This document shows, in pieces, positions 9,177 to 62,619 of a stretch of DNA of 64,000 bases. Within the stretch, counting starts at the first letter, position 1. Each line of letters starts with the position of its first letter. This DNA is from an uncultured Microcaldota archaeon (GTDB taxonomy: Archaea; Micrarchaeota; Micrarchaeia; Burarchaeales; Fermentimicrarchaeaceae). The position numbers and the translations under genes are program-made. The notes beneath the pieces were generated by a model. The model was given only the letters and a program-made list of their open reading frames with translations, did no database searches and was not told where the DNA came from. Where the stretch lies: assembly GCA_903884505.1 (NCBI GenBank), contig CAISET010000016.1, positions 1 through 64,000 of the forward strand. The letters run 5' to 3'.

Positions 9177-9365
9177 ATGGTTGAGAAGGCTTGCAGGGTT
9201 TGCAGGTATATCACTTCCGAGGGCGGAAAGTGCGCCGCATGCGGCTCTGAGGAGCTGACCGAGAAATGGAGCGGCTACGCTTATATCGAGGATGTGGCTA
9301 ATTCTGAGATTGGGAAGAGCGTTGGGGCCAAGGTGCCCGGGAAGTACGCGCTGAACATAAAGTAG
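9177..9365 (+). CDS. spt4: Transcription elongation factor Spt4 (RpoE'')
   Basis: A 62-aa zinc protein that partners Spt5 to make RNA polymerase processive. It has the zinc motif CRVC near residues 6-9 and CAAC at about 19-22, then the beta-rich half EKWSGYAYIEDVANSEIGK, with the usual end VPGKYALNIK. I use the ATG at 9177 rather than an upstream in-frame ATG at 9135 inside rpoE. The codon sits 4 nt after the rpoE stop, as expected for this conserved pair. Confidence 0.93.
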   Translation: MVEKACRVCRYITSEGGKCAACGSEELTEKWSGYAYIEDVANSEIGKSVGAKVPGKYALNIK

Positions 9366-9635
9366 GTCTTCCGTCTTTTTAGTTGAGGTTTTTACCACCC
9401 GATTTGCCCTTCGGGCAAATGGGCGCATTTGCGCCGCAGCGCAAATCGCGTATCGCCGGCGAGCGGAGCGATGCGCAACTCGGTTGCGCAGTTATCGCCG
9501 AAGGCGATTTGAGAGCGAATCGAGAGAGAGTCTGCGCAACAGCCGACAGAGGTTGCACAACAGCTTCGCTGTTGTGTTGGCGCGCAATGTTGCGTTGGCG
9601 CACAGGCTGATGAGCGACGGCGCATGGGAAAAAAG
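9366..9635. repeat. Non-coding array of seven short hairpins
   Basis: No gene with a recognisable product lies here. The gap is almost filled by tight inverted repeats: 9402-9420 (stem ATTTGCCC, loop TTC), 9427-9446 (stem ATTTGCGC, loop CGCA), 9453-9462 (perfect palindrome TCGCCGGCGA), 9472-9490 (stem TGCGCAAC, loop TCG), 9494-9508 (stem ATCGCC, loop GAA), 9556-9576 (stem CACAACAGC, loop TTC) and 9583-9594 (stem CGCAA). Related modules occur at 28284, 31353, 32666, 50697, 55086 and 62271. A T-run after spt4 (9375-9380) may end transcription. Function unknown. Confidence 0.8.
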
Positions 9636-10673
9636 TCAAGCGACTAGGGCTATTTTGTTGAGGTAGATTAGGCGCTCGATGTCGGTCTCGCTGATGATGC
9701 CCACCAATTTCGCGCCGTCCATCACTGGCGCGAGCTCAATATTAGCGGCCCTCATTTTCTTCCAGATTTCAAGGATGTTGTCATTTGGGTGGGCACGGAT
9801 TGGGTGCACGGAAAGGCTCCTTATCTTTCTCTTGCCCCATTCCGAGCGCGGAATCTTCTCGAAGGAGGCGAGATTCACGACTCCGAACCTGCCGTCGCCA
9901 ACCAGGAGGAGGTTCCTCACCTTTGCGCTCTTCGCGAGCGCGAAGGCGTCCTCGAGCGTCTCATCGCCGCTGGCGCAGGCCACTTCGGGCCGCATGGCGT
10001 CGCGCACGAAAACGCCGTCAGAGGCGACCTTGAAGAGCGCCGCCTCGAATTCCATGCCCGAGCCGAAGTAGACGAAGAGTGCGATGATGGCGTTCCAGAA
10101 AAGCAGGGTGGCGTCACCGGAGATGACTGAGAGCGCTACCGAAGTTACGATAAGGACCAGGACGACCATCTTGCTCAGCGCAACGGCTTCGCGGGTTGCG
10201 ACCAGGAAGCTCCTCTTTCTCTGCCTGAGCGCGCGCCAGACTCGGCCACCGTCCAGCGGGATTGCAGGCAGCAGGTTGAAGGCGCCGAGGATGAGGTTGG
10301 CTTCCTGCGTAACGCCGAAGATGAACTGGAGGGTCGGGTCCGTGAAAAGGAGCAAGAGGACCGTTGCGGCGAGGGCGATGGCAAAGCTCATGAGCGGGCC
10401 TGCGATTGAGACCTTGAACTCGACCGAGGGAGACATGGCGAAGTCGTCTATCACGGACATGCCGCCTATCGGCAGGAGGATGATGCGCTTCACGCTTATG
10501 CCGTTGAGATTCGCGACGTAAGAGTGGGAGAGCTCATGGACAACGACTGATGCGAATAGGATGATTATTATTGCCGTGGACTCGAGCCCGCCAACGAGCA
10601 GGACGAATGCGATGAGGATTAGGAACGTCCAGTGCAGCTCGATGTCAACGCCGAGGATGCGGAAGAGCTTCAT
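9636..10673 (-). CDS. Site-2 protease family (M50) metalloprotease with CBS domains
   Basis: Intramembrane zinc protease. The HExxH motif HELSH is at residues 46-50 within a hydrophobic helix, and the second metal-site motif PLDGGRVWRAL follows FNLLPAI. The arrangement of about six membrane segments (residues 10-200) followed by a pair of CBS domains (about 220-340, with IRSLSVHPIRAHPNDNILE and LVGIISETDIERLIYL) matches archaeal and bacterial M50B proteins thought to respond to adenylate ligands. Length 345 aa is usual. Lies 8 bp downstream of the glycosyltransferase gene on the same strand. Substrate unknown. Confidence 0.92.
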   Translation of the reverse strand: MKLFRILGVDIELHWTFLILIAFVLLVGGLESTAIIIILFASVVVHELSHSYVANLNGISVKRIILLPIGGMSVIDDFAMSPSVEFKVSIAGPLMSFAIALAATVLLLLFTDPTLQFIFGVTQEANLILGAFNLLPAIPLDGGRVWRALRQRKRSFLVATREAVALSKMVVLVLIVTSVALSVISGDATLLFWNAIIALFVYFGSGMEFEAALFKVASDGVFVRDAMRPEVACASGDETLEDAFALAKSAKVRNLLLVGDGRFGVVNLASFEKIPRSEWGKRKIRSLSVHPIRAHPNDNILEIWKKMRAANIELAPVMDGAKLVGIISETDIERLIYLNKIALVA

Positions 10674-60069: not shown

Positions 60070-60960
60070 ATGATTAAGATAGTTGTTGCGGACAAGCTTG
60101 ATACGGAGACAATAGTGGATATGAAGATGAGGTGGGGAGTCGTTGATTTGGCGGACAGGCCAGGGGATTTGCTGAGGGAGCTTGCTGATGCGGATGCGCT
60201 CGTTGTGAGGAGCAGGACGAAGGTTACGAAGGAGATTCTGGATGCTGGAAAGAGATTGAAGGCGGTTGCGAGGGCAGGGGTTGGGCTGGACAACATCGAT
60301 ACTGCGGAATGCGCGCGTAGGAATGTTCTGGTCATCAACACGCCGGGCGCGGCAACCGTTTCTGTCGCGGAGCTTGCGATAGGCCTCATGCTCTCAGTTT
60401 TAAGGAAGATTCCGAAGGCCGATGCTGGGATGAAGGCGAAGAAATGGGAGAAGAAAGACCTGACCGGCTCGGAGCTGTTCGGCAAGACCGTGGGGATAGT
60501 CGGGTTCGGCAAGATAGGGAAGGCCGTGGCCGAGAGGATTCTCCCATTCGGAGTGACGGTGCTTGCCATGGACCCGCATCCGAAGCCTTCGCCCGCGTAC
60601 AGCTTCGTGTCGCTTGAGGAGCTGCTCAGGCAGAGCGATATCGTCACGCTGCACACCGCACTCACCGAAGAGACGAGGGGGATGCTCAGCAGGGAGAGGA
60701 TTGCGCTGATGAAGCCGGGTGCGGTCCTGGTGAATACCGCGCGCGGGGCTTTGGTTGACGAGGATGCGCTCTACGACTCGCTGAAGGGCGGGAAGCTCGC
60801 CGGTGCGGGGATTGACGTCTATTCGGAGGAGCCTTATTCCAGTAAGCTGTGCGAGCTGGGAAATGTCGTGCTGACTCCGCACCTCGGCGGGGATACGGCT
60901 GAGGGGCAGGCAAGGGTGGGGAAGGAATTAATAGAGAGGCTTACGGAAATCCTTGGGTAG
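60070..60960 (+). CDS. serA: D-3-phosphoglycerate dehydrogenase (short form)
   Basis: Oxidises 3-phosphoglycerate to 3-phosphohydroxypyruvate, the first step of serine synthesis. The 296-aa protein has the NAD-binding turn VGIVGFGKIGKAVAERI and the catalytic Arg and Glu in NTARGALVDEDAL and AGIDVYSEEP, with His in LTPHLGG. There is no C-terminal ACT domain, so no allosteric serine site of the usual type. The start is ATG at 60070. The stop is followed by serS (ATG 60969) after 8 bp. Confidence 0.94.
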   Translation: MIKIVVADKLDTETIVDMKMRWGVVDLADRPGDLLRELADADALVVRSRTKVTKEILDAGKRLKAVARAGVGLDNIDTAECARRNVLVINTPGAATVSVAELAIGLMLSVLRKIPKADAGMKAKKWEKKDLTGSELFGKTVGIVGFGKIGKAVAERILPFGVTVLAMDPHPKPSPAYSFVSLEELLRQSDIVTLHTALTEETRGMLSRERIALMKPGAVLVNTARGALVDEDALYDSLKGGKLAGAGIDVYSEEPYSSKLCELGNVVLTPHLGGDTAEGQARVGKELIERLTEILG

Positions 60961-60968
60961 TGGTTTCA

Positions 60969-62237
60969 ATGTTGGATATCAAGAAGATAAGGGAGAACCC
61001 TGACGAGCTGAGGAAAGCGCTCAAGGACAGGGGGCAAGAGGCGAAGGTAGTTGATGAAATCCTTAAGCTGGACTCGGAATGGCGCGAGCTGAGAAGCGCC
61101 TCCGACGAATTGAGGGCGAAGAAGAACAAGGTGACGCAGGAGATTGCGCTGCTGAAGAAGGAGAAGAAGGATGCCGAGCCGAATATTCACGAGATGCACA
61201 AGGTGAACGCCGAGCTGGATGGCCTGGCAAGGGGGGAGGCGGAGCAGGAGGGGAAGCTGCGCTGCGTGATGCTCACCATCCCGAACATCCCGCACTCCAG
61301 CGTGCCAAAGGGGACGAGCGATGCGGACAACCCGGTGATAAGGACATGGGGAGAGCCGCCGAAGTTCAGCTTCAAGCCCAGGGAGCACTGGGAGATTGCG
61401 CCAGAGCTTGGGATTATGGATTTCGAGCGGGGGGTCAAGCTCGCGGGCCATCGCTTTACGCTGCTCAGGGGGGATGGGGCGAAATTGGAGAGGGCGGTCA
61501 TCAACTTCTTCCTTGATGTGCACGAGAAGAACGGCTATACCGAGATTTTCCCGCCGCTGCTCGTGAATGAGAAGGCCGCAACGGGAACGGGGAACCTGCC
61601 GAAGTTCGCGGACCAGCTCTATTACTGCAACGAGGACAAGCTATACCTGATTCCTACCGCGGAAGTGCCGGTGACCAATATTTACATGGATGAGACAGTC
61701 CAGCGCGAGCAGCTGCCTATGCATTTCTGCGCTTACACCCCGTGCTTCAGGAGGGAGGCGGGCGAATACCAGCGGGACATCAAGGGGTATATGCGGCAGC
61801 ACCAGTTCAACAAAGTGGAGCTCGTGCACATCTGCGAGCCGAAAGATTCCTACGATGAATTGGAGCTCTTGACTAAAGAGGCGGAATTGGTCTTGCAGCT
61901 CCTGAAGCTTCCTTACACCGTCACGCCGCTCTGCACCGGTGACATGGGGTTCGCTTCTGCGAAGACCTATGATATCAATGTCTGGCTGCCGGGCCAGGGA
62001 AAGTACAGGGAGATTTCTTCATGCTCGAACTGCGAGGACTTCCAGGCGAGAAGGGCGAGCATCAGGTATTGGGATGAGAAGGGGAAGCCGCAGTTCGTGC
62101 ACACGCTCAACGGGAGCGGAATCGCCGTTGGAAGGACGGTGATTGCGATAATCGAGAATTACCAGCAGAAGGACGGCAGCATCGTCATTCCGGAAGCGCT
62201 AAGGCCGTATATGAAAGGAAGGGATAAGATTGTATAG
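60969..62237 (+). CDS. serS: Seryl-tRNA synthetase (bacterial/common type)
   Basis: Charges tRNA-Ser and tRNA-Sec-type acceptors with serine. The 422-aa class II protein begins with the long antiparallel coiled-coil arm (MLDIKKIRENPDELRKALKD and about 80 residues beyond). It has motif 2 CFRREAGEYQRDIKGYMRQH and motif 3 LNGSGIAVGRTVIAIIENYQ. This is the common form and not the methanogen-type SerRS. It closes a serine operon with the aminotransferase and SerA, tying serine supply to its use in translation. Confidence 0.96.
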   Translation: MLDIKKIRENPDELRKALKDRGQEAKVVDEILKLDSEWRELRSASDELRAKKNKVTQEIALLKKEKKDAEPNIHEMHKVNAELDGLARGEAEQEGKLRCVMLTIPNIPHSSVPKGTSDADNPVIRTWGEPPKFSFKPREHWEIAPELGIMDFERGVKLAGHRFTLLRGDGAKLERAVINFFLDVHEKNGYTEIFPPLLVNEKAATGTGNLPKFADQLYYCNEDKLYLIPTAEVPVTNIYMDETVQREQLPMHFCAYTPCFRREAGEYQRDIKGYMRQHQFNKVELVHICEPKDSYDELELLTKEAELVLQLLKLPYTVTPLCTGDMGFASAKTYDINVWLPGQGKYREISSCSNCEDFQARRASIRYWDEKGKPQFVHTLNGSGIAVGRTVIAIIENYQQKDGSIVIPEALRPYMKGRDKIV

Positions 62238-62270
62238 GAGGTTCAGGAACCAAGGATATGCCGACGACGA

Positions 62271-62333
62271 GCGCGAAGCGCGAGGAGGACGCGAATCGGC
62301 GAAGCCGATAGCGCCCTTTCGCCGAAGGCGAAA
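62271..62333 (+). repeat. Three consecutive GAA-loop hairpins
   Basis: GCGC-GAA-GCGC (62271-62281), ATCGGC-GAA-GCCGAT (62295-62309) and TTTCGCC-GAA-GGCGAAA (62317-62333) follow each other within 63 bp between serS and the next gene. All have a GAA loop. They are read without a stop in the frame of the downstream gene. Confidence 0.8.
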
Positions 62334-62346
62334 CGGGAGGCAACCA

Positions 62347-62619
62347 TTGGTTCTGAAGGGGCTGCGCGAATTCGTCCTCTCGCTCGTGCTTGCGAAGGAC
62401 AGAAGGACGCTTGAGTGGTGGCTGATTGCGATAGAGATTATGAGCGGCATAGGCGGGCTTGTGCTGCTCATAGTGCTCGTGCTTTTCGGGCTTGAGCTTT
62501 CGGATTTGCTGCTTGAGGTTAAGCTTGGGTTCTTCGCAGTCGTGCTTGCGGTCGGGCTCGGCATTTTAGCGCTCATGCAGCTATTGCTGGCAATCGAATG
62601 GAATACCAGGAAGAAATGA
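62347..62619 (+). CDS. Small two-helix membrane protein
   Basis: The downstream 91 codons encode GLREFVLSLVLAKDRRTLEW and two hydrophobic spans (MSGIGGLVLLIVLVLFGLEL, then FFAVVLAVGLGILALMQLLL), ending in NTRKK. No family is recognised. The frame is open back to a TTG at 62230 that overlaps serS, but the codons between 62262 and 62345 are hairpin modules giving an Arg/Glu-rich non-conserved segment. I take TTG at 62347 as start, with low certainty. Probably on the serine-operon transcript. Confidence 0.5.
   Translation: MVLKGLREFVLSLVLAKDRRTLEWWLIAIEIMSGIGGLVLLIVLVLFGLELSDLLLEVKLGFFAVVLAVGLGILALMQLLLAIEWNTRKK

Follow-up and report, generated by a model that had tools for sequence, protein, structure and literature searches.

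Why should the gap between two converging genes in an uncultured micrarchaeal genome be filled with short hairpins? In the window analysed here (the whole stretch of 64,000 nucleotides), 270 bp separate a Spt4/RpoE2 gene on the left (9177–9365, + strand; PF06093) from a converging gene on the right encoding an M50 metalloprotease with a CBS domain (9636–10673, − strand; PF02163 and PF00571). The RpoE' gene shares 82% identity with that of an uncultured Candidatus Micrarchaeota archaeon (AlinenSediments_bin-2344), which assigns the genome to Micrarchaeota. A sequence-only reading of this DNA had reported seven tight hairpins between 9401 and 9594, and comparison with 2000 Markov shuffles shows that the array is real and far above chance. 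Nine hairpins have a stem of at least 6 bp and a loop of 3–5 nt where 0.43 are expected, and five have a stem of at least 8 bp where 0.04 are expected; stems of at least 7 bp number eight, and the next-best 194-bp stretch of the 64 kb window has two. The reported seven reduce to five clear, perfect hairpins, at 9402–9420 (8 bp stem, TTC loop), 9427–9446 (8 bp, CGCA), 9472–9490 (8 bp, TCG), 9494–9508 (6 bp, GAA) and 9556–9576 (9 bp, TTC), together with an alternative hairpin at 9415–9432 that overlaps its neighbours.

We consider this array likely to be a non-autonomous mobile DNA element of composite structure, in which double-hairpin modules are nested inside a palindrome of ~95 bp and the hairpins act at the DNA level. 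The array had been judged not to look like a mobile element, but mobility is supported by dispersed copies, common ends bearing inverted terminal repeats, an empty site in one relative, nested insertions, and stems that co-vary. The whole element, a type A copy, occupies the gap from 9376 to 9638 (+ strand), and its ends are common to about ten other copies. Its left end, TTTTTAGTTGAGGTTTTTACCA (9376–9397, +), is T-rich and forms an imperfect inverted pair with the finish, TGGGAAAAAAGTCA, of the right end, GCTGATGAGCGACGGCGCATGGGAAAAAAGTCA (9606–9638, +; placed by alignment to a short copy). The imperfect terminal inverted repeats, TTGAGGTTTTTACCA (9383–9397) and TGACTTTTTTCCCA (9625–9638), lie just beyond the limits of the array as first described, which is where the earlier statement that there are no terminal repeats fails. 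The final TCA of the right end is the stop codon (TGA) of the protease gene on the opposite strand, and the T-rich ends may act as transcription stops in both directions.

Alignment shows the window A copy to be a short palindrome of ~95 bp with three insertions, all given on the + strand. The first (9398–9450) is a double-hairpin module, M_I (CCC-N-hairpin-GGG-CGC-hairpin-N-GCG), matched by covariance model R1 with 80 bits; it is missing from the short A copies, and is present at the identical point in two more A copies (C1:30938 and C25:53438). The second (9472–9511), corresponding to a gap in the short-copy alignment, is a double-hairpin module, M_II, with stems TGCGCAAC and ATCGCC, and ~13 further copies have conserved stems and variable loops. 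The third block (9524–9605) is decayed and includes the hairpin CACAACAGC-TTC-GCTGTTGTG at 9556–9576. Two pieces of the base palindrome, at 9451–9471 and 9512–9523 (GAGAGCGAATCG), lie between the insertions and align to the short copy in L022.

Related sequences are dispersed through the same genome (1.51 Mb in 37 contigs), in which the 270-bp gap sequence has 36 matches. The left-end motif TTGAGGTTTTTACCA, the last 15 bases of the left end, is present at 15 sites with at most two mismatches, nine of them exact, and its reversed control at none. There are about ten copies of element A, some only ~95 bp long (in L022, L025 and L026). A second family, B, carries blocks similar to those of element A and has the ends CAGAACC and GGTTCCTGAACCTCC, found at 30 sites with at most three mismatches compared to five for the reversed control; about 27 of the 30 look genuine. 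The B ends co-vary between subfamilies (AACCCCCGATGC with GCATCGTCGGTT, and AACCAATGG with CCTTGGTT), and this change in concert is the behaviour expected of paired ends. Copies of A and B are non-coding, ~95–304 bp long, and have imperfect inverted ends. The window contains one B copy, identified by its end motif (62236–62355, − strand, with limits that are approximate at the B1 end), and within it an M_I-type double hairpin (62289–62337, −; model R1, E 3.7e-5). This copy sits directly behind a seryl-tRNA synthetase gene (60960–62237). All element counts rest on the 37-contig assembly, and four contigs (C19, C28, C15 and C7) terminate within or close to these repeats (L026 end, L025 start, L020 end and L028 end); the assembly thus apparently breaks at these points, and the true number of copies may be higher.

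Comparison of the gap with related genomes, as the sequence-only reading had proposed, could draw on the one relative with matching gene order (L044, the nearest found). There the order of Spt4 and M50 is unchanged and the two genes share a 4-bp overlap, with no gap at all. We interpret this junction as an empty site; with a single matching relative, the element could also have been lost from L044, which is less likely. Direct repeats of varying length (12–65 bp) flank a minority of copies only: six of 24 B copies have them, compared to two of 536 mismatched flank pairs, and no target duplication is seen at the window A copy or at most others. The repeats are 18 bp and perfect at L068:12001, 12 bp at L023:18376, and 20 bp and imperfect at L013:14717, and that of 65 bp at L071:11434 is possibly a segmental duplication. 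A B copy at L011:14879–14959, near the 3' end of a gene that presumably encodes lipoyl synthase, is flanked by a 36-bp duplication with four differences, all silent, and a tandem pair of A copies (L010:3177–3422) has AAGCCCCCGGCGA on either side, a direct repeat of 13 bp. The repeat at L023:8178 was rejected as a simple duplication, as it joins two gene starts resembling paralogues.

Nesting gives the order of insertion events. In addition to the window A copy, genome G009 contains one complete M_I lodged in a hairpin loop of a second M_I copy (from L091:1427), and from these nested cases we infer that hairpin arrays grow as small modules insert into larger palindromes.

The frame of M_I is constant among copies: CCC, one unpaired base, a hairpin, GGG, CGC, a second hairpin, one unpaired base, and GCG. 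In copies collected by these connectors alone, regardless of pairing, every variable stem position is paired, compared to 62–65% when arms are shuffled among copies, and there are zero G-T pairs. At 47 distinct M_I loci, a set with 39 stem sequences that was partly selected for pairing, the first seven pairs of each hairpin comprise 637 Watson-Crick, 2 G-T and 19 other pairs. Helices that function as RNA usually include an appreciable fraction of G-U pairs, so the scarcity of G-T pairs points to a constraint at the DNA level or to copying from arm to arm. The sequence-only reading held that the stems differ and that only the loop is conserved, but in this genome the reverse is seen: stems recur between copies, those of M_I are stable within one genome, and it is the loops that vary. 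Stem sequences change only between lineages, and both arms change together. Model R1, which was built from seven copies and is roughly calibrated, finds M_I in 33 of the 301 genomes searched in the phylum, distributed patchily over ten families; many of these hits appear on both strands, and the weakest ones could represent generic pairs of hairpins. The strict M_I pattern was not found in viral contigs. With constant connectors and changing, near-perfect stems, this module of ~55 bp is a natural test of how stems stay perfect, the candidates being selection on RNA, structure-based recognition of DNA, and template switching. Inversion of the TTC/GAA loop was considered as a trace of template switching, and the one fitting pair in this genome (C1 versus C25) is too weak to be used.

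A plausible course of events begins with element A, an imperfect palindrome of ~95 bp, which would have entered the junction of the two converging genes; M_I, M_II and the third block, now decayed, would then have inserted into it. Mobility would act on DNA, with extruded or single-stranded hairpins recognised as structures by an enzyme encoded elsewhere. Template switching, by copying one arm from the other, could keep the stems perfect; it would also account for how new stem sequences arise without passing through mismatched or wobble pairs. Insertions into gene ends, cleavable leaders and introns would be tolerated because little harm is done. A bolder proposal, which we put forward tentatively and with some doubt, is that Micrarchaeota harbor minimal DNA parasites of ~55 bp that are recognised by shape, have a fixed frame (CCC-N / GGG-CGC / N-GCG) around two hairpins, with stems rewritten by arm-to-arm copying, and use no known type of transposase.

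Could the array have arisen without mobility, the gap being a hot spot at which a polymerase converts imperfect palindromes into hairpins, either by template switching or by hairpin-primed synthesis? The sequence-only reading had raised hairpin-primed copying, and this deserves thought because the stems are almost perfectly Watson-Crick, without wobble pairs; template switching is documented as creating hairpins and keeping their stems perfect (PMC8794818, PMC8604942). As the sole cause, however, local growth is contradicted by homologous copies of the blocks, which are dispersed over other parts of the genome and also turn up in other families, and it leaves the common ends of the copies unexplained. 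We therefore regard it as very unlikely by itself, although local template switching may act on top of mobility. It is unlikely, too, that this is a REPIN-like element whose Y1 (RAYT-type) transposase has been lost or was not assembled here. The two hairpins of M_I form a mirror-symmetric pair, flanked on each outer side by a single unpaired base, in the manner of inverted REP doublets (PMC3116915), and Y1 genes are present in four of 16 M_I-bearing genomes. Nonetheless, a search of this genome for Y1 transposase (PF01797) gave no match while positive controls matched, and the aligned units are missing the GTAG tag, both of which bear out the earlier view that the array is unlike REP/BIME repeats. 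The Y1 genes of the relatives were rejected as mobilisers of M_I, since their loci carry hairpins of their own and have no adjacent M_I.

Selection for a structured RNA or a transcription terminator would account for the T-runs at both ends, the position between converging genes, and the strong folding of the element strand (RNA z −3.65). Yet folding of the minus-strand DNA is equally unusual (z −5.24), there are almost no G-U pairs, no match to Rfam 15 at the gathering score is present anywhere in the window, and copies occur in several gene orientations and in frame within coding leaders, such that we consider this explanation very unlikely; a terminator role may be a side effect of the element. 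The RNA scaffold suggested earlier is unlikely given the lack of an Rfam match, the near absence of G-U pairs, and the insertions in coding leaders and apparently in tRNA introns.

The search for other enzymes that might move the elements also found none. Neither reverse transcriptase RVT_1 (PF00078) nor DDE_Tnp_1 (PF01609) has a match in this genome, and no autonomous transposon sharing the element ends was seen in about 0.6 Mb of the 1.5 Mb genome. Spread by reverse transcription was rejected as RVT_1 is absent in 12 genomes, and DDE_Tnp_1 was rejected as the loci encoding it in relatives are without M_I. Integron attC sites, which have a hairpin-with-unpaired-base design, were also considered and rejected; cassettes are absent, and the attC core motifs are not apparent.

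The elements resemble several known systems in part. Like prokaryotic MITEs (PMC10969869) they are short (under 500 bp), non-coding and multicopy, with imperfect terminal inverted repeats. Direct repeats, which may be target-site duplications, flank some copies as in MITEs, but they are rare and of varying length; no autonomous partner was found in the stretches covered, and the interior consists of inserted hairpin modules. The REP/REPIN/BIME repeats also have an inverted pair of short hairpins and form extragenic clusters (PMC3116915), whereas here no RAYT gene was found, the stems are not constant between lineages, and the constant positions are CCC-N, GGG-CGC and N-GCG instead of the tag GTAG (or CGTC). 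As with M_I, the dispersed unit is a pair of closely spaced hairpins in the double-hairpin elements (DHE) of fungal mitochondria (Allomyces, Schizosaccharomyces) and the hairpin elements of sponge mitochondria, for which mobility is likewise deduced from comparison and no enzyme is known (PMC10085805, PMC2800124). The elements described here differ in residing in an archaeal chromosome, in the constant CCC-N/GGG-CGC/N-GCG frame, in having stems that differ between lineages, and in the nesting of units in longer palindromes; the likeness is one of design only and we make no claim of common descent. Element A is also similar to pneumococcal BOX elements, which have constant ends and a variable number of internal modules, but the modules inside it are double hairpins, and one of these is also found by itself in other genomes. 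Little is known of small palindromic mobile elements in archaea; we found no description of palindromic, MITE or hairpin repeats in Micrarchaeota or DPANN in the open-access literature, and nested palindromic elements have probably not been described in Micrarchaeota so far.

By rough gene calls, copies are located at gene ends and in gaps of several orientations, and some adjoin tRNA genes (L022, L009 and L019, read by eye). Genome G009 has many short hairpins beside tRNA genes (L030, L034 and L036) and, apparently, inside tRNA introns; these tRNAs were also read by eye and most were missed by ARAGORN.

Other copies lie within protein genes. In the window's genome, three reading frames pass through a B copy immediately ahead of (K/R)(G/A)QAAIEFLITNGWA: L020:1623–6332, which encodes a 1569 aa product with NosD/beta-helix matches in Pfam, L023:8108–12721, and L023:18349 onwards. 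At four loci of genome G003 (L032, L035, L038 and L041) a related insert follows GQSAM or AQSAM and precedes a second GQSAM. Rickettsia palindromic elements (RPE) are likewise palindromic repeats in frame within protein genes, a likeness of design, but here the inserts lie ahead of a class III signal motif in surface proteins. This motif occurs twice in several surface-protein genes with in-frame hairpin elements. Archaeal prepilin peptidases cut before the Q of this motif, so that the inserted peptide is probably removed together with the leader of these surface proteins. Copies placed in frame before pilin-type signal motifs illustrate how elements may lengthen leaders at low cost. A pilin-type gene start at L020 near 11404 (+) contains GQSAIE twice with a short insert in between, perhaps the result of a single-hairpin insertion.
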